This document shows, piece after piece, positions 19,005-61,864 of a DNA stretch of 64,000 nucleotides (position 1 is its first letter; each line of letters opens with the position of its first letter). Position numbers and translations under genes: made by a program. A model generated the notes under the pieces. That model was not told where the DNA came from. It made no database searches and saw only the letters and a list, made by a program, of their open reading frames with translations. This DNA is from Streptomyces fradiae. Lineage in GTDB: Bacteria; Actinomycetota; Actinomycetes; Streptomycetales; Streptomycetaceae. Location: assembly GCF_041270065.1 (NCBI RefSeq), contig NZ_CP065958.1, positions 6,944,001 to 7,008,000 on the forward strand. The letters are read 5' to 3'.

Positions 19005-19019
19005 GGGGCCGAAGGGCCC
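19005..19019 (-). promoter_or_regulatory. Palindromic box upstream of ABC transporter operon (candidate DevR/OsdR site)
   Basis: GGGGCCGAAGGGCCC matches the GGGnCCG-NN-CGGnCC pattern seen at eleven other promoters in the window. It is a single copy lying 49 bp before the ATPase start and 26 bp after the narK stop. Confidence 0.45.
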
Positions 19020-19044
19020 AATCGCCGTGACTTCGCCGCTGCGA

Positions 19045-20259
19045 TCAGGCGTCAGCGGTCGCTCGGGCGCGTCTGCGGACAGCGGTGGCGGCCAGGGTGC
19101 CCGCGGCCGTCGCGGTGACAGCGAGGAGGACGAACCCCCACGTGTAGTCGTGGGCGATGCTGTCGACCGCTCCCATCACGAGGGGTGGGAAGAAGCCTCC
19201 GAGACCGCCCGCCGCCCCGACAACTCCCGTCACCGAGCCGACCCGCTCGGCCGGAACCAGACGTGCGACGAGCGCGAAGACGGCCCCGGACCCGGCTCCC
19301 AGGCCGGCGGCCATGCCGAAGAAGGCCGCCGTTCCCACCGGGACCAGGCCCGCCTCGAACGCCGCGACCAAGGCGCACGCCGAAACGACACCGTACGAAA
19401 CAGTCAGTACGGGGACGGGGTGAGTACGGTCCGAGAGCCAGCCGCCCACCGGCCGCATCGCCACGGCGAGGACGACGAATCCCGCCGTCCGCAGTGCCGC
19501 GTCGGAGCGGCCGAGCTCGTAGGCCCGGGTGAGGTAGGTCGGGAGGTAGACGCTGAACGCGACGAACCCTCCGAAGGACACGGCGTACAGGAACGCCAGC
19601 TGCCAGGTGGCCGGCGTCCGCATGGCCAGCGCCGTGCGCGACACCATCGAGCCCGTCGCCGTCGCGCGTCCCGGACGGTCGCGGAGCAGGAACCGGGCCA
19701 CCGCGGCGTACACGGCGAGGCAGCCGGCCACGAGATCGAAGGGGAAGGCGCGCCCGACGGCGTCGGCGAGCTGGACGGTGGTGAACGCCGACAGGGCCGT
19801 ACCACCAGTGCCGATGCCGAAGATTCCGAGGGCGACACCCCGCCGTGCGGGTGGGTACCAGGCGTTGACGAACGGTACGCCGACGGCGAAGGCCGTACCC
19901 CCGAGCCCGAGGAGGAAGCCGCCTACGAGCACCTCGGCCAGCGAGTCGGCCAGGTGGCCCAGATACAGCACGGGCAGGATCGTCAGGGCCGCGACGAGGG
20001 GGAAGACCCGGCGTGCACCCCAGCGGTCTGTCAGCGCTCCGGCCGGGATCCGGCCGAGCGCGCCGACCACCACGGGCACGGCGACCACCAGCGACTGCTC
20101 GAAGGAACTGAGGGCGAGGTCGTCCCGGAGCCGCGGGCCGAGCGGGGCCAGCAGGGCCCAGGCCCAGAAGCAGAGCGCGAACCCGGTGGTGGCGAGGACA
20201 AGCATCTGCCACGGTCGCGGCGCGTCCGCAACCGGTCGGCTTCCCGTGTTCCGGACCAT
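19045..20259 (-). CDS. narK: NarK-type nitrate/nitrite MFS transporter
   Basis: A 404-residue MFS protein with about 12 membrane helices. LTDRWGARRVFPL is the MFS loop 2-3 motif; GIFGIGTGGTALSAF resembles the glycine-rich nitrate signature of the nitrate/nitrite porter family. GGGAGG lies before ATG 20259. A 1166-residue open frame continues upstream but is only the antisense of the formate dehydrogenase gene. No nitrate reductase is in the window, so nitrate/nitrite exchange for a reductase elsewhere, or formate/oxalate transport, remain options. Confidence 0.8.
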   Translation of the reverse strand: MVRNTGSRPVADAPRPWQMLVLATTGFALCFWAWALLAPLGPRLRDDLALSSFEQSLVVAVPVVVGALGRIPAGALTDRWGARRVFPLVAALTILPVLYLGHLADSLAEVLVGGFLLGLGGTAFAVGVPFVNAWYPPARRGVALGIFGIGTGGTALSAFTTVQLADAVGRAFPFDLVAGCLAVYAAVARFLLRDRPGRATATGSMVSRTALAMRTPATWQLAFLYAVSFGGFVAFSVYLPTYLTRAYELGRSDAALRTAGFVVLAVAMRPVGGWLSDRTHPVPVLTVSYGVVSACALVAAFEAGLVPVGTAAFFGMAAGLGAGSGAVFALVARLVPAERVGSVTGVVGAAGGLGGFFPPLVMGAVDSIAHDYTWGFVLLAVTATAAGTLAATAVRRRARATADA

Positions 20260-20361
20260 CGTGACCTCCCGGCAGTGATCCGCGTGGGCAGCGTGTGCCC
20301 TGCCGCTTCCCACACTCCGGCCGCCAGGATCTCGGTCCCAGGGGCCACTCGTTCCCTTCCG

Positions 20362-20397
20362 TGACCGTGCGGCCCTGCGGCATGGGCCGGTCGGCCC
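20362..20397. promoter_or_regulatory. Tandem palindromic boxes between narK and the formate dehydrogenase operon
   Basis: TGACCGTGCGGCCC (20362-20375) and GGGCCGGTCGGCCC (20384-20397), 22 bp apart. The second is a perfect palindrome. They lie about 103 bp before narK and 95 bp before the SHOCT/FDH operon, so one site pair could serve both directions. Confidence 0.6.
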
Positions 20398-20445
20398 TGT
20401 GCGGGGCGCCCCGAGCAGGGCACGGTGGGAGTGACGGACAGGACG

Positions 20446-20472
20446 CGGGCAGGAGTGTCCGGCTCCTGCCCG
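20446..20472. promoter_or_regulatory. Hairpin just upstream of the formate dehydrogenase operon
   Basis: CGGGCAGGAG (20446-20455) pairs perfectly with CTCCTGCCCG (20463-20472) around a 7-nt loop; GGAC/GTCC can extend the stem with a bulge. It ends 10 nt before the ribosome site of the first gene, so it could act as an operator or as an RNA element in the leader. No T-run follows. Confidence 0.5.
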
Positions 20473-25229: not shown

Positions 25230-25414
25230 ACTGTGGCCGATTGCCGAACCGTCGGGCTCTCGCGCCTCGAACGGCAGTAGGACATCCGGCGACGTTTCCT
25301 TCACATGGACCAGGTGCGCTCCGGTGTCGCGCAGCACCGCCTCCTCCGCCGCCCCCTGCGCGGCGGCGTTCGCCTGATCCTTGCCGTCCCGCCGACCACG
25401 ATGCTGTGCGTCAT
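25230..25414 (-). pseudogene. Universal stress protein gene, frameshifted and truncated
   Basis: From ATG 25414 the protein starts as a USP (MTHSIVVGG), then a small deletion shifts the frame; the other frame continues DGKDQANAAAQGAAEEAV and LRDTGAHLVHVKE, the usual USP helix 1 and strand 2. The similarity ends after about 60 residues, with the rest missing. ATG overlaps the CBS-BON stop (ATGA) and has GAGGAGG ahead, so it was the last gene of the operon. Confidence 0.7.
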
Positions 25415-26091
25415 GATCGTCCACCTCCTCGTGCGGTGTCGTCGATGTCGTAGGTGAGACGGGTCGAGGAGACCGAGACCACTCCGTCGACCGTCGCGCA
25501 CATGCGCTCGACGGCCGGGATCATGCCGCGGAAGCGGAGCTTCCCGGTGAGGCCGACCCGCCCGTCACGCACGTCGACCGTGAGCGAGGTCGGGTCGAGA
25601 CGCAGAGTGGCACCGAGCACGTCCTCGACGATCTCCCGGCGGATGTCGTCGTCCTGGCGGAGGAAGATGCTCAGGAGGTCGCGGCGGCTCACGATGCCCG
25701 CCAGGCGGTCATCGTCGTCGACGACGACGAGCCGCTTGATCCCTTGGACCTCCATGAGCCGGGCCGCCTCCGCCACGGTCCAGTCGGGGCGGGCGCACAC
25801 AGCGGGTGCGGACATCAGGTCCTCCGCGCGCGTTCCCTCGGCCTTCGCCCGCTCCCACGCCTCGAGACCCGGCACGCCCGGCATGTCTCCCGGGGTGGTG
25901 GCCTGGTCGGCCGTCTTCCTCATGAGATCGCCCTCCGACACGACTCCGATCACCCGGTTCTCTCCGTCCACCACCGGCAGCGCGGTGACTCGGTGCTGCG
26001 ACAGCACCCGCACGATCTCCTTGAACGGCGCGTCGCCGCGGATGCTCACCACCTCACGGGTCATCAGCTTGTCGATCCTGCGGTGTCGCAT
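25411..26091 (-). CDS. CBS-pair and BON domain protein
   Basis: A 226-residue protein: CBS1 from KLMTREVVSIRGDAPFKEIV to GVVSEGDLMRK, CBS2 from EDLMSAPAVCARPDWTV to GIVSRRDLLSIFLR, and a BON domain (LTVDVRDGRVGLTGKL) at the end. It carries a longer linker between the CBS motifs (AWERAKAEGT) than its paralogues. CBS pairs bind adenine nucleotides; BON binds membranes or proteins. ATG 26091 follows AAAGGAG; the ACP stop overlaps it. It closes the E1/E2 operon. Confidence 0.92.
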   Translation of the reverse strand: MRHRRIDKLMTREVVSIRGDAPFKEIVRVLSQHRVTALPVVDGENRVIGVVSEGDLMRKTADQATTPGDMPGVPGLEAWERAKAEGTRAEDLMSAPAVCARPDWTVAEAARLMEVQGIKRLVVVDDDDRLAGIVSRRDLLSIFLRQDDDIRREIVEDVLGATLRLDPTSLTVDVRDGRVGLTGKLRFRGMIPAVERMCATVDGVVSVSSTRLTYDIDDTARGGGRS

Positions 26092-26360
26092 CACCCGCTC
26101 CTTTCCTGCTCGGACTCACCCGCTCCGGCCACCAGGCGAGCGGCGCAGCCGTCCCAGGTGACGAGGGCTGGGTAGTCGTCCTCGGTGAGTTCCCTCCCAC
26201 TGAGTTCGGCGAGCGCTTCCACGAACTCGAGGAAGTCCAGCGAATCCATCTCGAAGGTGTCCCGCAGGGACACGCCGGGATCGAGCCCTGTGAAGTCGGC
26301 GCCGGGGACGACGCGCTGCACGGCCTGCCGAACGAACGCCTTCGCCTGGTCGTGGTTCAC
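26091..26360 (-). CDS. Acyl carrier protein
   Basis: An 89-residue free-standing ACP. The phosphopantetheine site is MDSLDFLEF (Ser in DSLD), following RDTFEMDSL. GTG start at 26360 overlaps the E2 stop (GTGA), so it is translated from the same message as the dehydrogenase subunits. An ACP between E2 and a CBS protein is unusual; it might accept acyl groups made by the synthetase or E2. No AcpS or ketosynthase is nearby. Confidence 0.9.
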   Translation of the reverse strand: MNHDQAKAFVRQAVQRVVPGADFTGLDPGVSLRDTFEMDSLDFLEFVEALAELSGRELTEDDYPALVTWDGCAARLVAGAGESEQERSG

Positions 26361-27697
26361 AGTTCCTCCGGGTGTTGCAGGAGCCGGTCCAGGGCGGTCA
26401 GGAGACGCGCGCCGGTGGCGCCGTCGGCGGCTCGGTGATCGGCGGACAGCGTCGCCGTCAGCACGGGACGTACTCCCAGCAGGCCGTTCACGGCCACGGG
26501 CCGCTCGACGATCCTGCCGAGGCCGACGAGTGCGACTTGCGGCGGGTAGACGACGCCGAACACGGCCTCGACGCCCTGGTCGCCGAGGTTGGTGACGGTG
26601 AGGCTGGGGTCGACGGTCTCGGACGCCCGGAGTCGGCCGCCCCGTGCCCGTGCCACCAGGTCCTTGAGCGCGGCCATCACCTCGGTCACGGAGAGTGTGT
26701 CGGCGTGGGCGAGGGCGGGTGCGACGAGGCCGCCGCCCCGCAGGGAGACCGCGACGCCCAGCCGGACCTCTTCTGAGGGGACGAAGCCGTCGTCACCCCA
26801 GTGCCCGTTGAGCTCGGGCACTTTCCGTGCCGCCAGCGCGACGGCCTTGAACGTGAGTGCTGCGGGCACCAGCCGTGCGGAGAGCGGCAGTTCGCGGTTG
26901 CGGGCGTGCATCCATTCCAGGGCCGCTGCCATGTCCACGGTAGTGGCGAGGTAGAAGTGCGGGATCTCCCGCTTGGATCGGCTCATGAGCCGGGCCGTGG
27001 CCGCCCGCGCCATGTCCGCCGCGGCCGGCCGCTGCGCGCCCTCGGCGGCCGCGGCGGAACGGACGTCATCCGCGCGGACGGTGCCATCCCGACCCGTGCC
27101 GGTCACATCGGCGAGGTCGACGCCGAGCTCGGTGGCCAGCCGTCGTGCGAGCGGAGAAGACTTCACACGTAGCGGGGCGGGACGCTCCTTGGCCGAGTCG
27201 TCGTCGCGCACCGGCTTCACCGGCCGTGCCGTGGGGGCGGTCTTGTCGCGCTCTGGTGCCGGTGCCGGTGCGGGTTCCGCGTGCTCCACGTCCGCGCGGG
27301 TGATCCTGCCTCCCGGGCCCGAACCATGGACGACGGAGAGGTCGACGTGCCGGTCCTGGGCGAGTCGGCGGACCAGGGGCGTCGATGGCGGCGGGCTTTC
27401 GGCAGGTGGACTTTCGGGCGGTCGGCTCTCAGCCGGACTGTTTTCGGCCGACGGGCTTTCGGAGGTCGTGCCGATGCGTGCCAGCGGGGCGCCCACCGGC
27501 ACGGTGGTGCCCTCGTCCACGAGGAGGGCCTCGACCGTACCGCTGTGGAAGCACTCCACCTCGATCGCGGACTTGGCGGTCTCGACCACCGCGACGACGT
27601 CGCCGCGCGTCACGCGGTCACCCGGGTGCACCAGCCACTCGGAAAGCATGCCCTCGTCCATGTCGGCGCCGAGCGCGGGCATCGTGAACTCGGCCAT
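26357..27697 (-). CDS. 2-oxoacid dehydrogenase E2, dihydrolipoyl acyltransferase
   Basis: A 446-residue E2 chain. One lipoyl domain (lipoyl-Lys42 in VVETAKSAIEVE), a Pro/Glu/Ser-rich linker, then two peripheral-subunit-binding domains (PLVRRLAQDRHVDLSVVHG near 107; PLARRLATELGVDLADVTG near 187) and a catalytic domain ending with the active-site DHRAADGA. Two E3/E1-binding domains in one chain is uncommon. It should transfer the acyl group made by E1 to CoA, or possibly to the ACP encoded next. No E3 gene is in this operon, so a housekeeping lipoamide dehydrogenase must serve. Confidence 0.93.
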   Translation of the reverse strand: MAEFTMPALGADMDEGMLSEWLVHPGDRVTRGDVVAVVETAKSAIEVECFHSGTVEALLVDEGTTVPVGAPLARIGTTSESPSAENSPAESRPPESPPAESPPPSTPLVRRLAQDRHVDLSVVHGSGPGGRITRADVEHAEPAPAPAPERDKTAPTARPVKPVRDDDSAKERPAPLRVKSSPLARRLATELGVDLADVTGTGRDGTVRADDVRSAAAAEGAQRPAAADMARAATARLMSRSKREIPHFYLATTVDMAAALEWMHARNRELPLSARLVPAALTFKAVALAARKVPELNGHWGDDGFVPSEEVRLGVAVSLRGGGLVAPALAHADTLSVTEVMAALKDLVARARGGRLRASETVDPSLTVTNLGDQGVEAVFGVVYPPQVALVGLGRIVERPVAVNGLLGVRPVLTATLSADHRAADGATGARLLTALDRLLQHPEEL

Positions 27698-27698
27698 C

Positions 27699-28709
27699 TC
27701 AGCTCACCGCCCGGCGGGCCGCCGCCACGATTCCTGCCGGCTGGGGGAGCGCCGCCTGCTCCAGCCGGCGGGCGTAGGGGATGGGGACCTCCGCGCTGCA
27801 GACCCGTTCCACGGGTGCGTCGAGTTCGAAGAACGCCTGCTCGCAGATGCGCGACTCGACCTCGGCGGACAGACTGCCGCTGCGCCAGCCCTCGTCGACC
27901 ACGACGGCCCGGTGGGTCCGCCGGACCGAGCCGACGATCGTGGCGTCGTCCAGCGGCCGCAGCGACCGCAGGTCGACGACTTCCGCGCTGATCCCCGCGC
28001 CCGCCAGTTCTTCCGCGGCTTCGAGGGCCTTGGGCACGCAACCGCCGTACGCGACGACGGTGACGTCGTCGCCCGCGCGGCGGACGGCCGCTCGGTCGAG
28101 GTCGACCTCGTGGACGGCCGGGTCGAGCGTGCCGGCCGCGTTGTAGAGGCTGCCGTGTTCGAAGAGCAGCACCGGATCCGGGTCGGCCAGTGCGGCGGAC
28201 AGCAGATGGCGGGCGTCGTCGATCGTGGCCGGCGCCAGGACACGGAGGCCGGGGATGTGGGCGTACCAGCCCTCGAGGCTGTGGGAGTGCTGAGCGGCCA
28301 GTTGCCGTCCCGCGCCGGTCGTCATGCGGATCACCAGCGGCACGCCGAGCTGCCCGCCGGACATGTGCCGCAGGGTGGCGGCGTTGTTGAGGATCTGGTC
28401 GAGTGCCAGCAGGCTGAAGTTGACCGTCATGATCTCCACGACCGGCCTCATCCCTGCCAGTGCGGCGCCGATCCCTGCTCCGACGAACGCGGACTCCGAG
28501 AGGGGGGTGTCGCGGACTCGATCGGGGCCGAACTCCTCCAGGAGGCCGAGGCTCACGCCGAAGCATCCGCCGTAGCGGCCCACGTCCTCGCCCATCAGGA
28601 AGACCCGGTCGTCCGATGCCAACGCCTCGCGCAGGCCCTCCCGGAGGGCCTCCCTGAAGGTGGTGGTGCCGTCTTCGGGATGCGCCCGCGGTCGCGTACG
28701 CGTGCTCAT
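27699..28709 (-). CDS. 2-oxoacid (pyruvate or acetoin) dehydrogenase E1, beta subunit
   Basis: A 336-residue E1-beta. [12 protein letters not shown] near the start carries the conserved TPP-activating Glu, [20 protein letters not shown] and [16 protein letters not shown] are family blocks, and the C-terminal domain starts at [12 protein letters not shown] 28709 overlaps the E1-alpha stop. The sequence does not separate pyruvate from acetoin or branched-chain substrates; the [12 protein letters not shown] block occurs in pyruvate/acetoin enzymes, which is the best guess. Confidence 0.92.
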
Positions 28710-29770
28710 GACGGAACCTCCTCGTGTCGGCCCGTGACATGGAGCAGCAGGTCTTCGGCCGGCTCCTCGGGAGCATGTTCGGCCGCGCGGACAGCTCGGT
28801 CGATCGCCTCCATGACCTCGTGGTCCAGGGCCTCTTGGGCGTCCGGGTCGAGGAGGCCGGCCTTGCGCATGCCTTCGGCGAGTCCCGTGACGGGGTCGTG
28901 CTTCCTCCACTCCTCGACCTCGCCCTTCGGCCGGTACCGGTCCGGGTCGTACATGGAGTGCGCGCGGAACCGATACGTCCGCATCTCCAGGAAGTGCGGT
29001 CCGTTGCCGGCCCGAATCGACTCGACCGCTCCGCGCGCCGCCTTCTCGACGGCATGTACGTCCATGCCGTCGACGGCCCAGGCCGCCATGCCGTACGACG
29101 CCGCCCTCATCGCCAGGTCCGTCTGGGCGTGTTCGCGGGCGAGGGCCGTCCCCATCGCGTACAGGTTGTTCTCGCAGACGAAGAGCACGGGCAGTCCCCA
29201 CAGGGCGGCGAGGTTGGCGGTCTCGTGGAACTCGCCCTCGGCGAAGGCCCCGTCGCCGAAGAAGCAGCAGGTCACCCGGGAATCGCCGCGCATCCGGTCG
29301 GCGAGGGCGAGGCCGGCGGCGAGCGGCAGGCCGCCGGCGACGATCGCGTTGCCGCCGTAGAAGCGGCGCGCGGCGTCGAAGAGGTGCATGGAGCCGCCGC
29401 GGCCGTGGCTGCAGCCGGTGGTCTTCCCGTACATCTCCGCCATCACGGCCTCGGGCGGTACCCCACGGGCAAGCGCGTGGCCGTGTTCGCGGTACGTGGA
29501 GACGACCGCATCCTGCTCGGAGAGCGCCTGGTGGACACCGACGGCGACCGCCTCCTCACCGATGTAGAGGTGGACGAAGCCGCGGATCGCCGCCGCGCTG
29601 TACAGCTCGACACACCGCTCCTCGAAGCGCCGGATGAGCAGCATCTGCCGCAGCAGGTCCAGGTCGTGGGCCGCCGCAGGGGAGAGGGCGGGCGTCGCGG
29701 GTCCCCGAGCGCGACGGGGCCGCTTCTTCTGCGATGTCCTGGCGGACGTGCCGCCATGTGCGGTGGCCAT
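28706..29770 (-). CDS. 2-oxoacid (pyruvate or acetoin) dehydrogenase E1, alpha subunit
   Basis: A 354-residue E1-alpha. The thiamine diphosphate motif [17 protein letters not shown] ends at ENN about 30 residues later, and [11 protein letters not shown] and [10 protein letters not shown] are active-site blocks. A basic N-terminal tail ([11 protein letters not shown]) precedes the domain. ATG 29770 touches the synthetase stop (TGATG); GTG 29773 is also possible. It forms the heterotetrameric E1 with the downstream beta chain. Confidence 0.93.
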
Positions 29771-31569
29771 CACGGCTCCTTCCCCGAGGGCCTGGCCGTT
29801 CCGGCCGGTTCGGGTGCCTCCAGCGTCGACACATCGCCCTCGGGCAGGCCCAGTTCGCGGGCCCGCAGCAGGCGGCGCATTACCTTTCCGCTACGGGTGT
29901 GGGGCAGGTCCTCGACGAACTCGATCTCGCGAGGGGCGACAGCCGGCCCGAGGCGCCGACGGGCGAACGCCAGGACGTCCCGCCGCAGTTGGGGGTCGGG
30001 CGGATACTCGGGGCGCGGCAGCACGAACGCCTTGACGATCGTGCCCGCCAGCTCGTCAGGGCGGCCGATGACACCGGCCTCGGCGACGGCCGGATGCTCC
30101 ATGAGGGCGCTCTCCACCTCGAACGGCCCGATGAGGTGCCCCGCGGACTTGATGACGTCGTCGGCGCGGCCCACGAACCAGTACCAGCCGTCGGCGTCGC
30201 GGCTGACCAGGTCGCCGGTCAGGTACCACCCGTCAGCGAAGCACGCCTCGTAACGCTGCGGTTCGTGGAGGTAGCCGCGGAACATCGACGGCCAGCCGGA
30301 CCGGAGGGCGAGCTCGCCCTGAGCGCCCGGCTCCTGAAGGATCTGGACGTGCCCGCTGGTGACCGCCGCCCGTCCGTCCTCGCCGCACGCCAGAACGGCT
30401 GCCTCGACACCCGGAAGCGGTCGGCCCATCGACCCCGGCCGCACCGGATCGGCCGCGAAATTGGCGATCATGATGGCACCGGTCTCGGTCTGCCACCAGG
30501 TGTCGTGGACCGGAAGCCCGAGTGCTTCCCGCCCCCAGTGCACGGCCTCGGGATTGAGGGGCTCGCCGACGCTCGCGACGAACCGGAGCGACGAGAGGTC
30601 GTGACGCGCGGTCGGCGCGCTGCCGTCGCGCGGTGCGGCCCGCATGAGCATGCGGAGCGCGGTGGGAGCCGTGTACCAGACGGTGACGTGCTGGTCGGCG
30701 AGGATCCCGTACCAGCGGGCGGGGGCGAAGTCTCCTTCGTCGACGACGGTCGTCACGCCGTGGGTGAGCGGGGCGATGATGCCGTACGACATGCCGGTGA
30801 CCCAGCCGGGGTCGGCGGTGCACCAGAAGACGTCGCCTTCGTGCAGGTCCAGGGCGTAGGCGGCGGTCACGTGATGGGCGAGGACCGCCTCGTGCACGTG
30901 TACCGCGCCTTTGGGGGTGCCTGTCGTGCCGCTGGTGAAGTGCAGCAGCGCCGGCTCCGCCGGATCGGTCGGTTGCACCGTGTACTCGTCCGGCGCGGCG
31001 TCCGTGAGCGCGGGGAACGAGAGGGTGCCCGGGGGCGGGTCGGCTCCGGGGTCGAGGAGCAGGACGTGCCGCAGGTGCGGAAGCCGGGGCCGTACCGGGG
31101 CCACCTTGCGCTCGTACAGCTCCCGGGTCGTGACCAGCGCCCGGGCGTTGCCCAGCTCCATGCGCAGTGCGACGGGTTCGGGACCGAAGGCGGTGAACAG
31201 GGGGCACAGGACTCGCCCGGCACGCAGCGTTCCGAGGACGGTGCTGTACAGCTCGAAGCGGCGGCCGAGCAGGGTGAACACCCGCTCGCCGCGTTCCAGG
31301 CCGAGCGTCTCCAGCACGTGCGCGAAGCGGGAGCTCCCGGCCGCGAGCCGGGCGAAGGTCATCGCCGCCACGGAGCCGTCGCGGCCGACGCAGCGCAACG
31401 CGACGCGATCGCCGTGCCCCTCACGCAGGTGCCGGTCGACCGCCTCGTATCCGATGTTGATGCCGCCGTCCGGAAGCCCGGCGAGCCGGGACCGCTCACG
31501 TCGCCAGGAGAACGTGGCCCGGGCGCTTTCGTAGTCGGGCATGACCGGCGCCACCCACAGAGCGTTCAT
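29770..31569 (-). CDS. Acetyl-CoA synthetase-like AMP-forming ligase
   Basis: A 599-residue ANL-family ligase. The AMP-binding loop is [11 protein letters not shown], the A5 motif [10 protein letters not shown] is that of acetyl/propionyl-CoA synthetases, A7 is WYLTGD and the C-terminal catalytic Lys is in [10 protein letters not shown]. It would activate acetate or propionate to the CoA ester. It is shorter than typical Acs (about 650) in the N-terminus. ATG overlaps the CBS-BON stop by 4 nt, placing it second in the operon. Reversible acetate/acetyl-CoA metabolism beside E1/E2 fits energy saving in hypoxia. Confidence 0.9.
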
Positions 31570-32243
31570 CGCGGTGGCTCCACGTCGAGCGCGAGATTGT
31601 CGTAGGCGTACTCGATCGATTCGTGCAGGGCGACCACTCCGTCGACCGAGCGGCAGAGCCGCACGATCACGCGGACGTCGGCGCGTTCGTCGACTCGACC
31701 CGTGAGCCTGACGACTCCGTCGTCGACGGTCACGCGGATCGTGTCGGGAGCGAGGCGCAGGGTATCCGCCAGGACGTCGTGCTCGATCTCGTCACGGATC
31801 GCGGTGTCGCTGCGCAGGAAGGGCCGCAGCAGGTCGCTGCGGCTGATGATTCCGACGAGCCGCCCGGTCTCGTCCACGACGGGAAGCCGCTTCACTCCCT
31901 TGCGGTGCATCGTCCGGGCCGTCTCGACGAGATTCCAGTTCGGCTGTGCGGTGATGGCCGGCGAGGTCATCAGCTGGACGGCCGTCTCCGCATCGGGCAG
32001 CCCTCGCTCCTGGGACAGGAGTCGGACGCCCGTCGCACGGCCCTCCAGGTCGGGGAGCTCGGTGGTGGCCCGCAGCAGGTCGGCCTCCGAGACCACGCCG
32101 AGCAGGCGTCGGTCGGGGTCGACGACCGGGACCGCGGAGACGTCGTGTTCGGCGAAGAGCCGGGCGATCTGCTTGAACGGGGTCTGGGGGGCGGCGGTGA
32201 CCACGTTGTGGGTCATCACCTCGAAAACCGTACGGTGCTGCAT
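31566..32243 (-). CDS. CBS-pair and BON domain protein, first gene of the E1/E2 operon
   Basis: A 225-residue protein. CBS1: [20 protein letters not shown] to [14 protein letters not shown]2: [17 protein letters not shown] to [33 protein letters not shown]. It leads the operon CBS-synthetase-E1alpha-E1beta-E2-ACP-CBS, with every junction overlapping or nearly so. As an adenylate sensor at the head of an acyl-CoA operon it could regulate the enzymes, though nothing here proves contact. Confidence 0.92.
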
Positions 32244-32314
32244 GACGGTCCTCCTTCACGGGACGAGGCGGCCCCGGTAGATCTCACCCTGCTGCGCGGA
32301 GCCGGCCCGAGGGC

Positions 32315-32350
32315 AGTGCCGAATGGTCCCCTTCCGGGACGGTCGGCCCC
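32315..32350. promoter_or_regulatory. Tandem palindromic boxes upstream of the E1/E2 operon
   Basis: AGTGCCGAATGGTCCC (32315-32330) and GGGACGGTCGGCCCC (32336-32350), about 21 bp apart and about 72 bp before the CBS gene. The second is one base short of the consensus. They also lie about 95 bp before the divergent DUF1918 gene. Confidence 0.55.
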
Positions 32351-33296: not shown

Positions 33297-33441
33297 GACC
33301 GGCCTCCGGTACGTCCGCGCCCCGAATCCTGTTGCTGCGAGGGTGTCGCCGCCGGGCGGCGGGCGACAAGGGCCGAAAGGGGGCACGGCGTGACCCGGCC
33401 GGCCCTGGCCCGGTCGGTCGGCCGGTGCTTTCCTGAAAGTG

Positions 33442-33610: not shown

Positions 33611-33704
33611 CCGAGCCCGGGACCGACCGGCCCTACCCGGCTCCCCCGGCCCGGTGCGAGCGTGGCAGCAGGCCACCTCACGACCCGGAAAGGCGGTGGG
33701 CGTG

Positions 33705-36297: not shown

Positions 36298-36313
36298 GGG
36301 GCCGGACGGCCCC
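36298..36313 (+). promoter_or_regulatory. Palindromic box upstream of the copper ATPase
   Basis: GGGGCCGGACGGCCCC, a near-perfect palindrome ending 97 bp before the ATPase ATG. Same pattern as the other island boxes; single copy. Confidence 0.5.
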
Positions 36314-36409
36314 TTCTGCGGGGCTGGTCAGGCCCTGCCCGGCGAGAGGTGGCCGACGTGGATGCCGCGCGGGAGGCTGGAGGAGCAGGCGCACGAGGAG
36401 GCGAGTGCC

Positions 36410-40151: not shown

Positions 40152-40186
40152 GGGCCGGGCAGGTCTCGATCGGGGCCGAACGGCCC
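40152..40186. promoter_or_regulatory. Tandem palindromic boxes between two divergent USP genes
   Basis: GGGCCGGGCAGGTC (40152-40165) and GGGGCCGAACGGCCC (40172-40186), 20-21 bp apart, about 90 bp before the rightward USP and 100 bp before the leftward one. The weaker-plus-stronger pair closely resembles the pair at 52.07 kb. Confidence 0.6.
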
Positions 40187-40274
40187 ATCCCCGGGAGGCC
40201 GGCCACGGTGTCAGCGTGGGGGGTATCGCCCCTCGGGACGTGCTCCCGAGCGGAGGACGTACGGAGGTGGAACC

Positions 40275-45372: not shown

Positions 45373-45395
45373 CTGCACCAGAGCCGTGGCGCCGT

Positions 45396-45430
45396 GGGCC
45401 GGTCGGTCCAGGTGCGGCCCGTTCGGCCCC
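45396..45430 (+). promoter_or_regulatory. Tandem palindromic boxes upstream of the Hsp20 operon
   Basis: GGGCCGGTCGGTCC (45396-45409) and GGCCCGTTCGGCCCC (45416-45430), 20 bp apart, 155 bp before the Hsp20 start. They fall just past the end of the CBS gene, so they serve the rightward Hsp20 unit. Confidence 0.6.
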
Positions 45431-52070: not shown

Positions 52071-52108
52071 GGGCCGCGCAGGTCCCACCCGGGGGCCGAA
52101 GGGCCCCC
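52071..52108. promoter_or_regulatory. Tandem palindromic boxes upstream of the cyclic-nucleotide protein
   Basis: GGGCCGCGCAGGTCCC (52071-52086) and GGGGGCCGAAGGGCCCCC (52091-52108), 20 bp apart. The distal box is 74 bp before ATG 52017 and also faces the broken alcohol dehydrogenase gene on the other side. Confidence 0.65.
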
Positions 52109-54314: not shown

Positions 54315-54390
54315 TACCGCGCCTCCCGCTCGAGGGTCCGGACGGTGCTTCCTACGTCACCACCCTCCGACGCGCACGCGGGGCCTGCGA

Positions 54391-54424
54391 GGGCCGAACG
54401 GTCCACCCTCAGGACCGAACGGGC
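54391..54424 (-). promoter_or_regulatory. Tandem palindromic boxes upstream of the CBS-BON gene
   Basis: GGGCCGAACGGTCC (54391-54404) and AGGACCGAACGGGC (54411-54424), exactly 20 bp apart and 77 bp before ATG 54314. Confidence 0.65.
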
Positions 54425-54462
54425 TCGTCATGCAGGGGTCGCGCCCCGCCCGGCCGAGGGCG

Positions 54463-54477
54463 GGGACCATTGGTCCC
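54463..54477 (+). promoter_or_regulatory. Palindromic box upstream of the USP pair
   Basis: GGGACCATTGGTCCC, symmetric on both sides of the centre, 84 bp before the USP ATG at 54562. A weak second half-site (GCCCCCAGCGGCCCT) follows 21 bp later. Confidence 0.6.
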
Positions 54478-54561: not shown

Positions 54562-55068
54562 ATGAACGGAACCACTGCCCGTTCCGGCCTCGGCAGGGTC
54601 GTCGTCGGTGTGGACGGCTCACCGTCCGCAGACGCGGCGGTGATATGGGCGGCGGCGGAGTCGGCGCTGCGGGGCATCCGTCTTGTTCACGCGGCGGACA
54701 CGGACACACCGGTCCCCTTCCTGACCGAGGCGGAGATCGTCAGGAGCCGGCAAGCAAGGCGTGATGAGGCCTGTGCGGTTCTTGCGGCGGTCCGGAACGA
54801 GGCCGACGTGGGCTGTGCCCGTGCGGCGGCCGGCGAAGAGGAGTTCCCGAATCTGACCGTGCAGGCCGACGGCCGGAGCAGCCACAACGTTCCCGGTGCT
54901 TTCGCCGACGCGTCGCACCACGCCGGCCTTCTGGTCTTCGGCGGTCGACGATCGCCCGGCTACCTCGGACCGACGCTCCGCCGGATCACGCTGACCCTGC
55001 TGCAGCACGCTCACTGCCCCGTGGAGCTCATCCCTCGGCAAGGACCCCGACATGGGAGCACGTCATGA
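54562..55068 (+). CDS. Single-domain universal stress protein, possibly an internal-deletion product
   Basis: A 168-residue protein. Its start (RVVVGVDGSPSADAAVIWAA...LVHAADTD) resembles domain 1 of the USP at 40.28 kb, while its end (LLVFGGRRSPGYLGPTLRRI, LLQHAHCPVELIPRQ) resembles that protein's domain 2. A two-domain USP may thus have been joined into one. The ATP motif is incomplete, so nucleotide binding is doubtful. GGAGGAGAAGG before ATG 54562. The stop overlaps the next ATG by 4 nt. Confidence 0.88.
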   Translation: MNGTTARSGLGRVVVGVDGSPSADAAVIWAAAESALRGIRLVHAADTDTPVPFLTEAEIVRSRQARRDEACAVLAAVRNEADVGCARAAAGEEEFPNLTVQADGRSSHNVPGAFADASHHAGLLVFGGRRSPGYLGPTLRRITLTLLQHAHCPVELIPRQGPRHGSTS

Positions 55069-55925
55069 CCAGCACCACGGATCGCGGCAACATCGTCGTC
55101 GGTATCGACCCGCTCAAGAACTGGCACATGGCCCTTGCCTGGGCCGCGGACGAGGCTCACCTGCGAGAACGGGGACTGCGCCTGGTGGTCGCGGTACCAC
55201 CGCAGCACGACACCCGGCATGTCGACGACACCCCCCGTCACCTGGCACGGCGGCAGGTGGGAACGGAAGCTCTGCATACCGCGCTCGCCTGGGCGAAAAC
55301 CCGGCAGCCGGGTGTCGAGGCCGCCTCCTCCCTTCTCGACGGGTTCCCGGTAGGGGTCCTGGCCGGGCTGTCACACGACGCCGGCATGATCGTGCTGGGA
55401 TCCCGGCACCTCAGCCGCACCGAGGAGTACCTGAGCGCCGGTTCCCTGGTCGTCCCGGTCACCGCGAAGGCGCGCTGCCCGGTGGTCGTCGTGGGCGACG
55501 CGGAACACGTCACGCAGGAGACGCCCTACCTCGTGGTCGGCCTTGACGGCAGTGAGTCCTCACGGGCAGCCCTGGCCTGGGCCTTTGAGGAAGCCGACCT
55601 CCGGCGCTGCGCACTGCGTGCCATCGCCGTCTGGCAGCCCCCCGTCTTCTCCCTGCACAGCTCCGACTCACTGTTCCACGCCGAGCGGCGGCTGCTCTCG
55701 GAAACCACTGCGGGCTGGGCGGAGAAGTATCCCGACGTCCGGCTCACCCACGAGGTTCCCATCGGCTCCCCCGTGGAGACGCTCGCGGACGCAGCCGAGC
55801 ACGCCCTGGCCGTGGTCGTCGGGCGTCGAGGCCGCGGCGGATACACCGGGATGCGCGTCGGCTCCGTCGTCCACGGGCTGCTGCACCGGGCGCACTGTCC
55901 GGTGATCACCGTCCCTGCCAGGTGA
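55065..55925 (+). CDS. Two-domain universal stress protein
   Basis: A 286-residue USP pair. Domain 1: NIVVGIDPLKNWHMALAWAA and VLGSRHLSRTEEYLSAGSL; domain 2: LVVGLDGSESSRAALAWAF with intact ATP motif VGRRGRGGYTGMRVGSVV. It is a clear paralogue of the USP at 41.18 kb; GWAEKYPDV and GLLHRAHCPVITVP are almost identical. ATG overlaps the preceding stop, and a P-type ATPase gene starts 7 nt after its end. Confidence 0.93.
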   Translation: MTSTTDRGNIVVGIDPLKNWHMALAWAADEAHLRERGLRLVVAVPPQHDTRHVDDTPRHLARRQVGTEALHTALAWAKTRQPGVEAASSLLDGFPVGVLAGLSHDAGMIVLGSRHLSRTEEYLSAGSLVVPVTAKARCPVVVVGDAEHVTQETPYLVVGLDGSESSRAALAWAFEEADLRRCALRAIAVWQPPVFSLHSSDSLFHAERRLLSETTAGWAEKYPDVRLTHEVPIGSPVETLADAAEHALAVVVGRRGRGGYTGMRVGSVVHGLLHRAHCPVITVPAR

Positions 55926-55932
55926 GCGCGCC

Positions 55933-58554
55933 ATGACGGCGTCGGCTCCCCACCGGGCCCCTGCGCCGGTGCGGGAGACAACGGGACTCACCCAGGAGGA
56001 AGCCGCCCGACGGCTCGCCGACACAGGCCCCAACGAGGTGGCCGCGAGAAAGCCCGTACGGCTCCACAAGCGGGTTCTGGCCCAACTGACGGACCCGCTG
56101 ATCATGGTGCTCCTCGGGGCCGTCGTGCTGACCCTCGCGATCGGCGACCATCCTGACGCGATCGTCATCGGGATGGTCGTCCTCGTGAACACGACCGTCG
56201 GGGTGGCGCAGGAGATCCGTGCCGACAACGCCGTCGCCGCACTCTCTGCCCTCACCGCGCCGCACGCGCGCGTGCGGCGCGGCGGCGCAGTCCGCGACCT
56301 CCCGGCGGCGGCGGTCGTCCCTGGCGACGTCCTCCTGGTCGGTGAGGGAGACATCGTCGCCGCCGACGCCGAACTCGCCGAGGTGTCCGCCGTCCTGGTG
56401 GACGAGTCCATGCTCACGGGGGAGTCCGTGCCCGTGGACAAGGACGCCGGTGCGACGCTGAGCGCGGGCACGGTGGTCGTGCGGGGCCGGGGCGTGGCCG
56501 TGGCCACGGCGACCGGTGCCGGCAGTGCCCTCGGTCGCATTGCGGCTCTTCTCGACGAACGTCGCGAGCCGACCCCGCTGCAGCGCCGCCTCGCCGCCCT
56601 CGGGCGCATCCTCGCGGCCGTGACGCTCGCCTTGTGCGTCCTGGTGTTCACCCTCGGCCTGGTGCGGGGACTCCCACTCGGCACGATGGCGGTCACCTCC
56701 ATCAGCCTGGCCGTGGCGGCGGTCCCCGAGTCCCTTCCCGCTGTCGTCACCCTGGCACTCGCACTCGGGGCCCGGCGCATGGTCGCCCGGCACGCCCTGG
56801 TGCGGCGGCTGCCCGCCGTGGAGACGCTCGGCTCCGTATCCGTCCTCGCCACCGACAAGACCGGCACCCTGACCGAGGGCCGCATGGTGGTCCAGCACGT
56901 GTGGACACCGCGGGTGAGCGCCGAACTCTCGGGCGTGGGGTACGAACCCGTGGGCGATCTCCTGGTAGCCGGGCGGCCCGCGGAAGCGGACGAGCTCGAA
57001 CCCCTGACGGACCTCCTGACCGTGACCGCCCTGTGCAACGACGCCACACTGCGCCCGCCGGACGACGGGGCCGCCGATGGCCGCTGGACGGCCCTGGGCG
57101 ACCCTATGGAAGCCGCCCTGCTCACGGCCGCGGCCAAGGCGGGCTGCCCGGATTCCACAGAACTGGCGATGAGCCGTCCCCGGCTCGGCGAAGCACCCTT
57201 CGACAGCCTCCGCCGACGCATGACCACGCTGCACGCGACCGGGGAGGGCCGGGTGCTGGTCTGTCTGAAGGGCGCCCCCGAGGCTGTCCTCGACCCGGCT
57301 GTTCTGCTGGACCCTGCGGAGGCGCTCACGGCGGCCCGCCAGGAGGCCGCAAGCCTGGCCGCCCAGGGGTATCGGGTGCTCGCCGTGGCATCAGGCGTGC
57401 GTAACGACATCCCGCACCCGGTCACCGCGGCGGAGTCGGGGCTCGCTCTCCTCGGCCTCGTCGCGCTCAGCGACCCGCCCAAGCCGCATGCCGCAGCGAC
57501 CCTCGCCTCCTGCCGCGCCGCCGGCATCACCCCCGTCCTCATCACCGGGGACCATCCGGCGACGGCTCGGTCGGTGGCGTCCCACGTCGCCCTTCTGGGC
57601 GACGGCGGGGAGACGGAAGGCCACGTCGTCACGGGGGCGGACGTGGCGGCCGGCCGCGTTGCCGACCTCACCTCGGTGCGGGTCTTCGCGCGCACGGACC
57701 CCCAACAGAAGCTGGACATCGTGGAGGCGTGGCGCGCCAGGGGAGCGGTGACCGCGATGACCGGCGACGGTGTCAACGACGGCCCCGCCCTGCACCGGGC
57801 CGACATCGGCGTCGCCATGGGCGCACGCGGCACTGAGGTCGCGCGGCAGGCGGCCGACCTCGTCCTCACCGACGACGAGCTCTCGACGGTCGTGGCGGCC
57901 GTCGACGAGGGACGTCGTGTCTACGACAACATCCGCCGCTTCCTCGTCTACGGGATGGCCGGCGGCGCGGCAGAGATCCTCGTCATGTTGACCGGCCCCC
58001 TGCTCGGGCTGCCTCTGCCCCTGCGAGCGGGTCAGATCCTGTGGATCAACCTCCTGACGCACGGCCTCACCGGAGTCGCCATGGGCGCGGAACCGGCCTC
58101 CCCGGGAGCGATGCGGCGACCGCCACGCCCGCCGGACCAACACATCCTCGGCGGAGGTGCCTGGCAGCGCCTGCTCGTCCTCGCCGCCGTCGTCACAGCA
58201 GCCTCCCTCGGCGCGGGGCTCGGTGCTCAGGCACTGGACCTGGCTTGGCAGAGCGTTCTCTTCCTCGCCCTCCTGGCCGCGCAGCTAGGCGTTGTCCTGG
58301 GACTCCGCGCCCGGCTGTTCACCCGCAAGAACCCGTTCCTTCCCCTGTCCGTCGTCGCCTCCGCCCTGCTTGCCGTGGCAGCGCTCTACGTACCATTCCT
58401 GAGCTCGGTCCTGGAGACCGAACCGCTCGGCTGGGCGGGCGTCGGGATCGCCGTGGCTGGTGCCCCCGCGGGTTTTCTTGCCGCGCGACTCGTCCGCACC
58501 GCCTTCCGTGGGACGCACCCGGCTGGAGCGTCGGGGACACGGGAACTACCGTGA
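55933..58554 (+). CDS. P-type cation ATPase (CtpF/SERCA-like P2 group)
   Basis: An 873-residue pump: LTQEEAARRLADTGPNEV, actuator [10 protein letters not shown]4 motif AAVPESLPAVVTL (Ser replaces the Gly of PEGLP), DKTGTL (phosphorylated Asp308), KGAPEAV, GDGVNDGPAL (Gly for the usual Ala), and a C-terminal LWINLLTHGLTGVAMG block typical of Ca2+/Mg2+ pumps. Encoded 7 nt after a USP and 51 nt before the DosS-like kinase. It differs clearly from the pump at 47.2 kb. Ion not predictable. Confidence 0.92.
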   Translation: MTASAPHRAPAPVRETTGLTQEEAARRLADTGPNEVAARKPVRLHKRVLAQLTDPLIMVLLGAVVLTLAIGDHPDAIVIGMVVLVNTTVGVAQEIRADNAVAALSALTAPHARVRRGGAVRDLPAAAVVPGDVLLVGEGDIVAADAELAEVSAVLVDESMLTGESVPVDKDAGATLSAGTVVVRGRGVAVATATGAGSALGRIAALLDERREPTPLQRRLAALGRILAAVTLALCVLVFTLGLVRGLPLGTMAVTSISLAVAAVPESLPAVVTLALALGARRMVARHALVRRLPAVETLGSVSVLATDKTGTLTEGRMVVQHVWTPRVSAELSGVGYEPVGDLLVAGRPAEADELEPLTDLLTVTALCNDATLRPPDDGAADGRWTALGDPMEAALLTAAAKAGCPDSTELAMSRPRLGEAPFDSLRRRMTTLHATGEGRVLVCLKGAPEAVLDPAVLLDPAEALTAARQEAASLAAQGYRVLAVASGVRNDIPHPVTAAESGLALLGLVALSDPPKPHAAATLASCRAAGITPVLITGDHPATARSVASHVALLGDGGETEGHVVTGADVAAGRVADLTSVRVFARTDPQQKLDIVEAWRARGAVTAMTGDGVNDGPALHRADIGVAMGARGTEVARQAADLVLTDDELSTVVAAVDEGRRVYDNIRRFLVYGMAGGAAEILVMLTGPLLGLPLPLRAGQILWINLLTHGLTGVAMGAEPASPGAMRRPPRPPDQHILGGGAWQRLLVLAAVVTAASLGAGLGAQALDLAWQSVLFLALLAAQLGVVLGLRARLFTRKNPFLPLSVVASALLAVAALYVPFLSSVLETEPLGWAGVGIAVAGAPAGFLAARLVRTAFRGTHPAGASGTRELP

Positions 58555-60342
<1,788 letters not shown>

Positions 60343-60343
60343 G

Positions 60344-61033
60344 CTACGTCTCCTCGGTGGCGTCGTGCTCGTGGGCCTGCGCGGCGATGACGGCAGCCTG
60401 TACGCGGCGTTCCACGCCGAGCTTGCCGAGCAGCCGGGAGATGTGGTTCTTGACGGTCTTCTCCGACAGATAGAGCTGCTTGGCGATCTGCCGGTTGGTC
60501 AGCCCCTCGCCGATCAGTTCGAGCACGGACCGCTCTCGCTCGGACAACACCGCGAGCCGCTCGTCCTCCGGCGGCTTGGCTGCCTCCGGGTCCCGGAGCG
60601 AGTGCATCAGCCGAGCGGTCGTGGCCGGGTCCAGCATCGACTGCCCGGTGGCCACGGTCCGCACCGCCGATACGAGGTCTGACCCCTTGATCTGCTTGAG
60701 GACGTATCCGGCCGCACCGGCCATGATCGCGTCCAGGAGGGCGTCCTCGTCGTCGAACGACGTCAGCATCAGGCACGCCAGCTCGGGCATCCGGGACCGT
60801 AGCTCCCGGCACACCGAGATGCCGTTGCCGTCCGGCAGGCGGACATCGAGAACCGCCACGTCCGGCCGTAGGGCCGGACCCCTGGCCAGCGCCTGCTCCG
60901 CCGTTGCCGCCTCGCCGACCACCTCCATATCGGGCTCGTCGTCGATCAGGTCATGGAGGCCCCGGCGGACGACCTCGTGATCGTCGACGAGGAAGACCCG
61001 CGTGGGTGCGGTGGCTGCCGGCAGATCGGTCAT
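60344..61033 (-). CDS. osdR: DevR/OsdR-like response regulator (NarL/LuxR family)
   Basis: A 229-residue regulator. Receiver: VFLVDDHEVVRRGLHDLI, phospho-acceptor Asp63 in VAVLDVRLPDGNG, LTSFDDEDALLDAI and YVLKQIKG; C-terminal HTH: LTNRQIAKQLYLSEKTVKNH and LGKLGVERR. The wording is very close to mycobacterial DevR (VRLPDGNG, EKTVKN, KLGMERR). Expected to bind the GGGnCCG palindromes in this island. ATG 61033. Kinase and regulator converge rather than form an operon, so they are transcribed separately. The promoter overlaps the end of the upstream CBS gene unit. Confidence 0.93.
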   Translation of the reverse strand: MTDLPAATAPTRVFLVDDHEVVRRGLHDLIDDEPDMEVVGEAATAEQALARGPALRPDVAVLDVRLPDGNGISVCRELRSRMPELACLMLTSFDDEDALLDAIMAGAAGYVLKQIKGSDLVSAVRTVATGQSMLDPATTARLMHSLRDPEAAKPPEDERLAVLSERERSVLELIGEGLTNRQIAKQLYLSEKTVKNHISRLLGKLGVERRVQAAVIAAQAHEHDATEET

Positions 61034-61098
61034 GGCGACCCCTGTGGTCGGTCGGGTGGGTCCCGCCCCCCCACAAGGATTGTCCGTCTTGGAGCGTC

Positions 61099-61725
61099 TC
61101 ATGGGGCACCGAGATCCATCCGGACGTCGACAACGCCCTCCACGGCCAGCACGGCGCGGGCGACCAGCGGCACCATCGACCGGTCGGAGAGCGACCCACG
61201 GATCGTGGCGACACCGTCCGCGACCGTCACATGCAGTCCCACGGTGGCGGTTGGCTCGCTGAGGACGGACTGGCGGATGTCCTCCTCGATCTCGGCGTCC
61301 GTACGCAGGAACACCTTCAGCAGATCGCTCCGGCTGACCACGCCCTCCAGCATGCCGACGCCGTTGATCACGGGCAGGCGCTTCACCCTTCGCGTCGCCA
61401 TGATCCGTGCCGCTTCGGCGAGCGTCGCGTCGGGACGGACGGTGACGGCCGGGCTGGACATGAGTTCCCCGGCCCGTACGGCTCCCGCCTTGTATGCCGC
61501 GGCGAGCTCGTCCGGTCGGGGTTCGTCCGTGCGGAACTCCTCCTTCGGTAGCAGATCGGCTTCCGATACGACCCCGATCACCCGTCCCTCCCCCTCCAGA
61601 ACGGGCAAGGCGCTCACCTTCCACTGGTCCATGAGCGCGACGATCTCCTTGTACGGCGCGTCACGCCCGATGGCGATCGCGGTGTGGGTCATGACGTCGC
61701 TGACGGTGTAGCGCGAGGCGGGCAT
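61099..61725 (-). CDS. CBS-pair and BON domain protein
   Basis: A 208-residue paralogue. CBS1: DVMTHTAIAIGRDAPYKEIV to [16 protein letters not shown]2: ELMSSPAVTVRPDATLA to GVVSRSDLLKVFLR; BON: LHVTVADGVATIRGSL. GGGAGAA before ATG 61725; the open frame upstream (to 61986) runs through the promoter boxes. It lies 65 nt upstream of the response regulator in the same direction, so the two may be cotranscribed, which would place the regulator under its own boxes. Confidence 0.92.
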   Translation of the reverse strand: MPASRYTVSDVMTHTAIAIGRDAPYKEIVALMDQWKVSALPVLEGEGRVIGVVSEADLLPKEEFRTDEPRPDELAAAYKAGAVRAGELMSSPAVTVRPDATLAEAARIMATRRVKRLPVINGVGMLEGVVSRSDLLKVFLRTDAEIEEDIRQSVLSEPTATVGLHVTVADGVATIRGSLSDRSMVPLVARAVLAVEGVVDVRMDLGAP

Positions 61726-61829
61726 CACGTTCTCCCAGAGAGGTGAAGATCTACGGGCCGCTTGCCGCTCACCGGGGCCTCCGCACCGGTGTCTACTCCA
61801 GTCTGGCCGCGTTCCGTGAAAGGACAGGA

Positions 61830-61864
61830 GGGCCGGATGGCCCCCTCGGGTCCCTCTTCGGCCC
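61830..61864 (-). promoter_or_regulatory. Tandem palindromic boxes upstream of the CBS-BON/regulator unit
   Basis: GGGCCGGATGGCCCC (61830-61844) and GGGTCCCTCTTCGGCCC (61848-61864), roughly 20 bp apart, 105 bp before ATG 61725. If the regulator gene is cotranscribed, this would be an autoregulatory site. Confidence 0.55.

Follow-up and report, generated by a model that had tools for sequence, protein, structure and literature searches.

The 64,000-bp stretch of Streptomyces DNA analysed here (the window: bases 6944001-7008000 of a 7.88-Mb contig) contains a 43.8-kb island (18.9-62.7 kb) which, judging from its regulatory boxes and encoded proteins, very probably constitutes an OsdR (DevR/DosR-type) oxygen/redox-response regulon. 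A palindromic box that matches the published OsdR consensus AGGGCCGATCGGCCCT (PMC5069765) lies upstream of the predicted targets, and a DevR-like regulator and a DevS-type sensor kinase are encoded in the island. The original prediction, that a box shared by twelve promoter regions defines a candidate DevR/OsdR regulon, is partly confirmed: the observation largely holds and its interpretation is supported.

Gene content of the island

Gene calling relied on a simple caller based on codon position, which makes the start coordinates approximate, and 40 proteins encoded between 18.2 and 63.2 kb were scanned for Pfam domains. The proteins recognised include seven CBS-BON proteins, universal stress proteins (USPs), Hsp20, a cupredoxin/P-type ATPase and two further P-type ATPases, phosphoenolpyruvate (PEP) synthase, a cyclic nucleotide (cNMP)-binding protein, a zinc-dehydrogenase open reading frame (ORF), fdhBA-like subunits, an AMP-binding synthetase and the E1 alpha, E1 beta and E2 components of a 2-oxoacid dehydrogenase. 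A predicted operon (25411..32243, minus strand) consists of seven genes separated by 1-bp gaps or overlapping, in the order CBS-BON, AMP-binding acyl-CoA synthetase (acs), E1 alpha, E1 beta, E2, an 89-aa protein and CBS-BON. The start of the 89-aa protein, which lies outside the Pfam scan, resembles by eye an acyl carrier protein, and there is no E3 among the seven genes. The zinc-dehydrogenase ORF (52167-52919, plus strand, 250 aa) has incomplete Pfam coverage and is perhaps truncated.

The regulator (60344..61033, minus strand) combines REC and GerE domains, and the expectation that the island encodes a DevR-like regulator is borne out: the best PDB match of this protein is DevR (3c3w, E 1.9e-73), with 122 of 208 aligned positions identical (58.7%). 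The DosR base-contact residues Lys179, Lys182 and Asn183 are retained, as they are in all four of the genome's own paralogues. Among the loci listed, its closest named relative, 98% identical, is from Streptomyces sp. Root1304. The sensor kinase (58579..60342, plus strand; GAF-GAF-HisKA_3-HATPase) matches PDB entry 2vzw best ("probable histidine kinase response regulator", E 8.7e-53), which we take to be the GAF-A domain of DosT, followed by DevS GAF-A entries. The residues aligned with DosS His149 and Tyr171, a placement that presumably follows the DosS chain numbering, are His and Tyr, and the position of His89 is occupied by Ile. By these heme-GAF residues the kinase is of the OsdK/DevS type.

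The genes osdR and osdK do not form one operon. They are convergent in the window and in 52 of 78 loci from relatives (the full set comprises 80 loci, L053-L132, totalling 1.55 Mb; L101 and L103 have no osdR call on the expected strand and were left out of gene-neighbour counts). A one-operon arrangement is in any case a matter of gene order, not a functional criterion for an OsdR regulon. The transcription unit of osdR is predicted to start with a CBS-BON gene (61099..61725, minus strand), and in 40 of the 78 loci it is this gene that the neighbour upstream of osdR matches best. On the other strand, two USP genes, a P-type ATPase gene and osdK are separated by gaps of at most 24 bp and may form a transcription unit (54562..60342), an uncertain assignment; osdK begins 24 bp after the ATPase gene.

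Boxes recognised by the published OsdR matrix

The box was scored with a matrix built solely from the 25 S. coelicolor OsdR sites in Table 1 of Urem et al. 2016 (PMC5069765), independently of the window. OsdR binds this box in electrophoretic mobility shift assays in S. coelicolor, according to the same paper. At a score of at least 12, the matrix finds 11 sites in the island and none in the other 20.2 kb of the window; there are three in 100 kb of flanking sequence, all within one 20-kb stretch, and four in a 300-kb control. At a score of at least 14 the counts are eight, none, two and none. When the control is widened to 400 kb (20 stretches: the first 300 kb plus five more), it contains six sites at the lower threshold and none at the higher. 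The density of strong matches is therefore not equal elsewhere, with eight in 43.8 kb against none in 400 kb.

The highest-scoring box (20383..20398, 17.1) lies upstream of a SHOCT gene starting at 20498 and the FdhBA-like genes (20887-25226). A box at 40172..40187 (16.4) separates the divergent USP genes 40051 (minus) and 40275 (plus), one at 36298..36313 (16.3) precedes the cupredoxin/P-type ATPase gene 36362 and has a weak partner at 36320 (5.5), and one at 33619..33634 (14.9) precedes USP gene 33696. In the divergent region between CBS-BON gene 54314 and USP gene 54562, a box at 54390..54405 (14.5) has a partner 21 bp away (54411..54426, 9.5) and a third, weaker box towards the USP gene (54462..54477, 6.1); these three also lie ahead of osdK. 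Further boxes are found between the cNMP-binding gene 52017 (minus) and the zinc-dehydrogenase ORF 52167 (plus) (52092..52107, 14.4), before CBS-BON gene 61725 and osdR (61829..61844, 14.3), and upstream of the CBS-BON/acs/2-oxoacid dehydrogenase operon (32335..32350, 14.2), the last with a proximal partner 20 bp away (32315..32330, 8.4). The box before Hsp20 gene 45586 (45415..45430, 13.0) also has a partner at 20 bp (45395..45410, 9.8). The box upstream of PEP synthase/dikinase gene 42316 (42071..42086, 12.6), with a partner at 24 bp (42047..42062, 11.4), overlaps the 3' end of USP ORF 41177-42187. A possible 31-codon leader ORF (42193-42288, plus strand) lies between this tandem box and the PEP synthase gene.

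The remaining strong box (19005..19020, 12.8) has no partner and lies between the major facilitator superfamily (MFS) gene 19045-20259 and the ATP-binding cassette (ABC) gene 18210-18956, both on the minus strand; whether it is an operator or a terminator stem is uncertain. As it lies beyond the stop codon of the MFS gene (3' side, same strand), it is the best candidate among the palindromes for an RNA stem-loop. That some of the boxes are terminators seems to us improbable nonetheless, since none of eight terminator-like sites in 18.9-58.7 kb coincides with a box (the scan requires a T run, so that stems lacking one would escape it, and excludes 61829), and terminators would not be expected between divergent genes, where several of the boxes are placed.

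Eleven of the twelve promoter regions first proposed to share the box hold a strong one, the exception being the region at 33370. Among the 21 individual coordinates proposed, 11 score at least 12, and these are all such sites in the window. Four more are moderate (42048, 11.4; 45396, 9.8; 54411, 9.5; 32315, 8.4), 54463 scores 6.1, 20362 (3.8) and 33370 (3.5) are weak, and 40152 (0.8) is near noise; the matrix gives no support to 52071 (-3.9) and 61848 (-5.5). The description of most boxes as tandem was overstated: a partner at 19-25 bp with P<0.025 accompanies six of the 11 strong sites (20383, 32335, 36298, 42071, 45415 and 54390). A box-to-start distance of 72-105 bp, also proposed, is approximated at seven of the 11, where the box centre lies near 68-112 bp from the nearest downstream start (20383, 32335, 33619, 40172, 52092, 54390 and 61829), but not at the other four, where the distances are 56 bp (the Cu ATPase gene and the ABC gene), 164 bp (Hsp20) and 238 bp (PEP synthase).

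Box number and regulator presence across genomes

The association between box and regulator was examined in 101 Streptomyces genomes, using RGGGCCGDHCGGCCCY as the strict box pattern and its reversal as the control. A regulator match at E<=1e-60 is present in 95 of them. The 71 genomes with an OsdR-type regulator contain on average 5.10 strict boxes, compared with 1.92 in the 24 that have only the more distant orphan type and 1.67 in the six that have neither; the difference between genomes with and without the OsdR-type regulator has p=1.3e-8, an optimistic value given that the genomes are phylogenetically non-independent. The cut for the OsdR type (E<=1e-84) was chosen after the match E-values were known, and G055 (4e-83) was counted as orphan-only. 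The reversed pattern does not differ between the three groups (means 3.28, 3.33 and 3.0; p=0.89). Box number thus follows the presence of an OsdR-type regulator across the 101 genomes. Several matches to a strict tandem pattern in the same genomes look like repeats.

Promoter geometry in relatives

The 80 loci of relatives contain 272 sites scoring at least 12. Of these, 228 are extragenic with a start no more than 350 bp downstream, as are 13% of random positions; 20 lie inside genes, as do 75% of random positions, and 24 elsewhere. The commonest distance from box to start is 80-100 bp (143 one-sided sites). Partner sites (score at least 5) occur 17, 48, 29 and 21 times at 20, 21, 22 and 23 bp, with 0.64 expected at each, or 115 versus 2.6 in total, strong-strong pairs being counted from both ends. 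Smaller partner peaks at 32 and 53 bp have 12 counts each (expected 0.64).

Motif finding in the region +10..+80 bp from the box in 166 non-redundant promoters, with no position supplied, recovered GAcGcTGGA. The motif starts at a distance of 30-32 bp from the centre of the box, and anchoring on the distal box gives an echo that lies another 21 bp away. Of 134 scored promoters, 63 fall in one 3-bp bin, compared with 11-17 in ten shuffles, and with half of the loci used for training, 33 of the 67 promoters scored in the other half share one 3-bp bin, with 16 in the echo. With a matrix trained on the same promoters, the element (GAnGnTGGA) is found in 109 of the 166, versus a mean of 19.7 (maximum 24) in 20 shuffles. 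It is frequent in some families unrelated to one another (CBSBON_54314 8/8, alcohol dehydrogenase (ADH) 6/6, PNPox 6/8, osdR 15/22, nitroreductase 6/11) and rare in others (USP_40051 2/17, other genes 4/37, Hsp20 0/3, flavodoxin 0/4, osdK 0/4); the exact form SANNNTGG occurs at the expected place in none of the 22 osdR promoters. The element occurs in many, not all, box promoters, at a fixed distance from the box. If it is read as a -10 element (A-11, T-7 and a GG discriminator), the centre of the proximal box would fall near -43.

In the window, a box together with the -10-like element is found at five of 25 starts tested (uncorrected P<0.02): 20498 (GGGCACGGTGGG, 20418..20429, plus strand, 27 bp from the box centre, score 9.2, P 0.0019), 32243 (CAGCAGGGTGAG, 32283..32294, minus, 28 bp from the proximal box centre, 6.2, P 0.015), 40275 (TGTCAGCGTGGG, 40209..40220, plus, 6.8, P 0.011), 54314 (TCGGAGGGTGGT, 54359..54370, minus, 9.4, P 0.0015) and 61725 (GGCCAGACTGGA, 61797..61808, minus, 28 bp from the box centre, 9.3, P 0.0017). 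A sixth, 20259, with a box of 3.5, is doubtful.

The element might instead belong to an alternative sigma factor, the regulon then requiring that factor in addition to phosphorylated OsdR. Position -12 is G or C in 63 element-anchored promoters, with A and T at 0%, though these were selected by the same matrix, and TANNNT, tried as a -10 candidate and rejected as too infrequent, has 27 matches in 227 promoters, a count made with no shuffle comparison. On the other side, the housekeeping factor recognises A-11, T-7 and a G-rich discriminator, and a weak -10 can be offset by an activator near -43. We regard a dedicated sigma factor as unlikely. TTGACA/TATAAT-like promoters are absent from 39.8 kb, where only 0.3 and 0.5 were expected, so that this absence carries little weight on the sigma question. 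In the 57 promoters without this element, a search for another class of -10 recovered only the second box. The string TTCACTG stands at the expected place of the element beside three strong boxes in the same genome (L004 1125, L004 1898 and L045 7539).

Target genes in relatives

The classes of downstream genes first likened to those of DosR are upheld in part, as several of the same families carry boxes in other Streptomyces, while the two non-Cu P-type ATPase families do so in 0 of 12 cases as first gene. A box of at least 12 precedes the first gene of a unit in PNPox (13/17), CBSBON_54314 (22/32), Hsp20 (4/6), CBSBON_61725 (14/24), nitroreductase (12/21), USP_40275 (16/29), USP_40051 (21/40), osdR (31/64) and cNMP (19/40); the background in other genes is 61/501. 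The nitroreductase, also named as a target, is present in the window only as a broken remnant (53057-53631, minus strand), recovered by tblastn as three pieces in different places; an intact 335-aa nitroreductase-like protein matching it is encoded at 551 kb.

Of 200 Streptomyces genomes, 27, this one included, have a match to acs at E<=1e-150. In 15 of the 26 others a box of at least 10 lies within 350 bp upstream of the unit, and in 13 of the 26 one of at least 12 (the acs gene alone was compared). The acs/2-oxoacid dehydrogenase operon is thus a likely target by its upstream sequences, one absent from Table 1 of Urem et al. (PMC5069765) and from the S. lividans table as shown (PMC6302529).

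Paralogous regulators in the same genome

Four OsdR/DevR-like regulators are encoded in the genome, the others being at 547 kb (88% identical to the window copy), 7.126 Mb (68%) and 3.868 Mb (61%); all four are 57-59% identical to DevR. The 547-kb locus, a second, smaller osd locus with two strong boxes (L035, bases 540001-560000), encodes a convergent kinase 77% identical to that of the window, a USP, a CBS-BON homologue (83%) and the intact nitroreductase-like protein; its boxes are at 550682 and 557519, the latter within a called ORF. The names NAPRT and MBL at this locus were read from protein starts, without a family search. The same applies to the gene with a DevS-type-kinase-like start that adjoins the 7.126-Mb regulator. 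At 7.126-7.129 Mb (L040/L041), one pair of boxes, spaced by 24 bp, precedes the regulator, and another, spaced by 34 bp, precedes a cytochrome-oxidase-subunit-like gene, which was likewise named from its protein start without a family search. In the regulator tree, for which ten rows flagged as long branches were retained, DevR joins the orphan at 3.868 Mb (100/96); both are long branches and the bootstrap does not settle the grouping. From its identity (61-65%), the 3.868-Mb protein is presumed to be of the SCO3818 type.

Because all four share the base-contact residues, any of them may act on the island. The boxes could be real and yet be served mainly by a paralogue, at 547 kb, 7.126 Mb or 3.868 Mb, alone or exchanging with the island's regulator. 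All four proteins are present, with the K, K and N of the recognition helix kept, the 547-kb and 7.126-Mb regulators have the kinase and kinase-like neighbours just described, and in S. coelicolor SCO0204 and the orphan SCO3818 share a single kinase (PMC3881020, PMC5069765). We consider this a genuine possibility, if not the favoured one. Genomes with the orphan alone are about as box-poor as those with no regulator (1.92 and 1.67), so that the orphan seems not to maintain the box, and the transcription unit of the island's own regulator carries a box of its own.

Weighing the evidence

Several results weigh against an OsdR regulon with the promoter arrangement described above. Five of the 11 strong sites in the window lack a supported partner at 19-25 bp, and across genomes the strict tandem pattern fails to separate the groups (32/71, 10/24 and 0/6, or 32/71 versus 10/30). 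Nine window starts with a strong box upstream have no -10-like element above threshold (ABC 18956, USP 33696, Cu ATPase 36362, USP 40051, PEP synthase 42316, Hsp20 45586, cNMP 52017, ADH 52167 and USP 54562), and the element accompanies only two of 13 boxes elsewhere in the genome (550682 and 557519), which lowers the odds of a distinct promoter class. Nor are the window promoters fully independent of the set on which the element was trained, as this includes close relatives, with regulators up to 98% identical. In relatives, the box is rare when the first gene is USP_55065 (3/19), PATPase_55933 (0/10), PATPase_47176 (0/2) or osdK (5/47). Control of osdK by the boxes at 54390, 54411 and 54462 is accordingly uncertain, given that osdK heads its own unit 47 times in relatives with a box in five. 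The fdhBA box is lineage-limited, a strong one being present at four of 17 orthologue loci (17 of 18 other orthologues were compared, G069 being omitted at a contig end). At three control loci, taken from the 12 FdhA matches with 44-45% identity, there is no strong box. Finally, a stricter pattern has 24 matches in the whole genome, compared with 27 for its reversal.

This last count, together with the consensus as originally written, which at up to two mismatches yields 91 matches against 80 +- 10 in shuffles and hence no enrichment, could suggest that the cluster is an artefact of the GGCC palindromes common in DNA of 72% GC. The exact pattern GGGGCCGNNCGGCCC, tried and discarded, fares no better (16 versus 25 control matches in the genome). 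Single-pattern counts are uninformative genome-wide, and the matrix and local clustering were used for that reason. Seven of the 24 genome-wide matches come from four places (the window, 550-558 kb, 7.029 Mb and 7.126-7.129 Mb), three of which encode a DevR-like regulator. The box signal is one of local clustering rather than of genome-wide excess, and the matrix counts at 14 and above, the intergenic placement and the fixed spacing in relatives refute chance at the level of the island; we give it virtually no credence, and only single weak sites are left uncertain.

A model of the regulon

From the OsdR regulon as the favoured reading, we infer how OsdR binding, the signal, activation, the transcription starts and the sigma factor may fit together. 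The heme-GAF kinase would sense loss of oxygen or a redox/NO signal and phosphorylate OsdR-type regulators, dimers of which would bind boxes of the form RGGNCCG-NN-CGGNCCY, often in pairs spaced by 20-23 bp, or two helical turns. At the proximal box, centred near -43, the bound protein would stand in for a -35 element and recruit RNA polymerase to a weak -10 (GAnGnTGGA) that keeps A-11 and T-7 and lacks T at -12. The genes predicted to be induced together encode USPs, CBS-BON proteins, Hsp20, the Cu-type P-ATPase, PEP synthase, the formate-dehydrogenase-like pair and the acs/2-oxoacid dehydrogenase operon. The box of the CBS-BON-osdR unit predicts positive autoregulation, and osdK may share the boxes of the USP-USP-ATPase unit. 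More tentatively still, these promoters could form a distinct Streptomyces class, silent without phosphorylated OsdR and marked by a single box or a pair with 20-23 bp spacing, a proximal box at -43, the lack of a -35 and a -10 of the form S-A-n-G-S-T-G-G-A that excludes A/T at -12, with parallel DevR-DevS systems reading one box at different oxygen/redox thresholds, a proposal that we rate as less likely than not.

Relative to the open-access literature searched, the additions are an independent confirmation, the geometry of the promoters, the test for co-occurrence of box and regulator, a likely further target in the acs/2-oxoacid dehydrogenase operon, and the set of four regulators. A list of predicted motifs thereby becomes a set of promoter rules open to experiment, covering the spacing of the boxes, the -43 position and the form of the -10, for a regulon of the dormancy type in soil bacteria amenable to genetics, and box number is tied to the presence of a regulator over 101 genomes. 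Four DevR-like regulators in one genome will have to be allowed for in knock-out studies.

Comparison with known systems

The system, very probably an OsdR/DevR regulon, is of a known kind, and its box is the published OsdR box. It resembles the OsdR/OsdK regulon of S. coelicolor (SCO0204/SCO0203; PMC5069765) in the box, the kind of regulator and the heme-GAF kinase, and the two have several target classes in common: USP, pyruvate phosphate dikinase (PPDK)/PEP synthase, zinc dehydrogenase, Crp-like protein and pyridoxamine oxidase, with nitroreductase here a remnant. In contrast to S. coelicolor, where kinase and regulator form one operon (PMC5069765), the kinase here is convergent with the regulator, and no nitrate reductase was recognised among the 40 proteins scanned; there are, in addition, the acs/2-oxoacid dehydrogenase and fdhBA-like units and the four DevR-like regulators. 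The tandem spacing and the -10-like element were measured here; the word "tandem" does not occur in the portion of PMC5069765 available, whose Table 1 lists SCO0517 sites at -248 and -268. SCO3818, an orphan response regulator of S. coelicolor, is an OsdR paralogue that takes phosphate from the OsdR kinase (PMC3881020); presence of the SCO3818 type alone does not go with box number.

In S. lividans, 35 genes on the right chromosome arm are co-expressed with osdR, among them USP, CBS, PPDK, nitroreductase and dehydrogenase genes, whose expression increases along with that of osdR (PMC6302529). That group differs from the island in resting on expression data from another species, and its table as shown has no acs/E1/E2 operon. 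From the M. tuberculosis DevR/DosR dormancy regulon the island differs in its GC-richer box, in a protein identity of 58.7% and in its target set. It resembles that regulon in regulator family, contact residues, kinase type and gene classes, and the close-packed sites of mycobacterial DevR promoters, where the proximal one overlaps the -35 (PMC3029386), are a feature that the boxes described here have in common with them.

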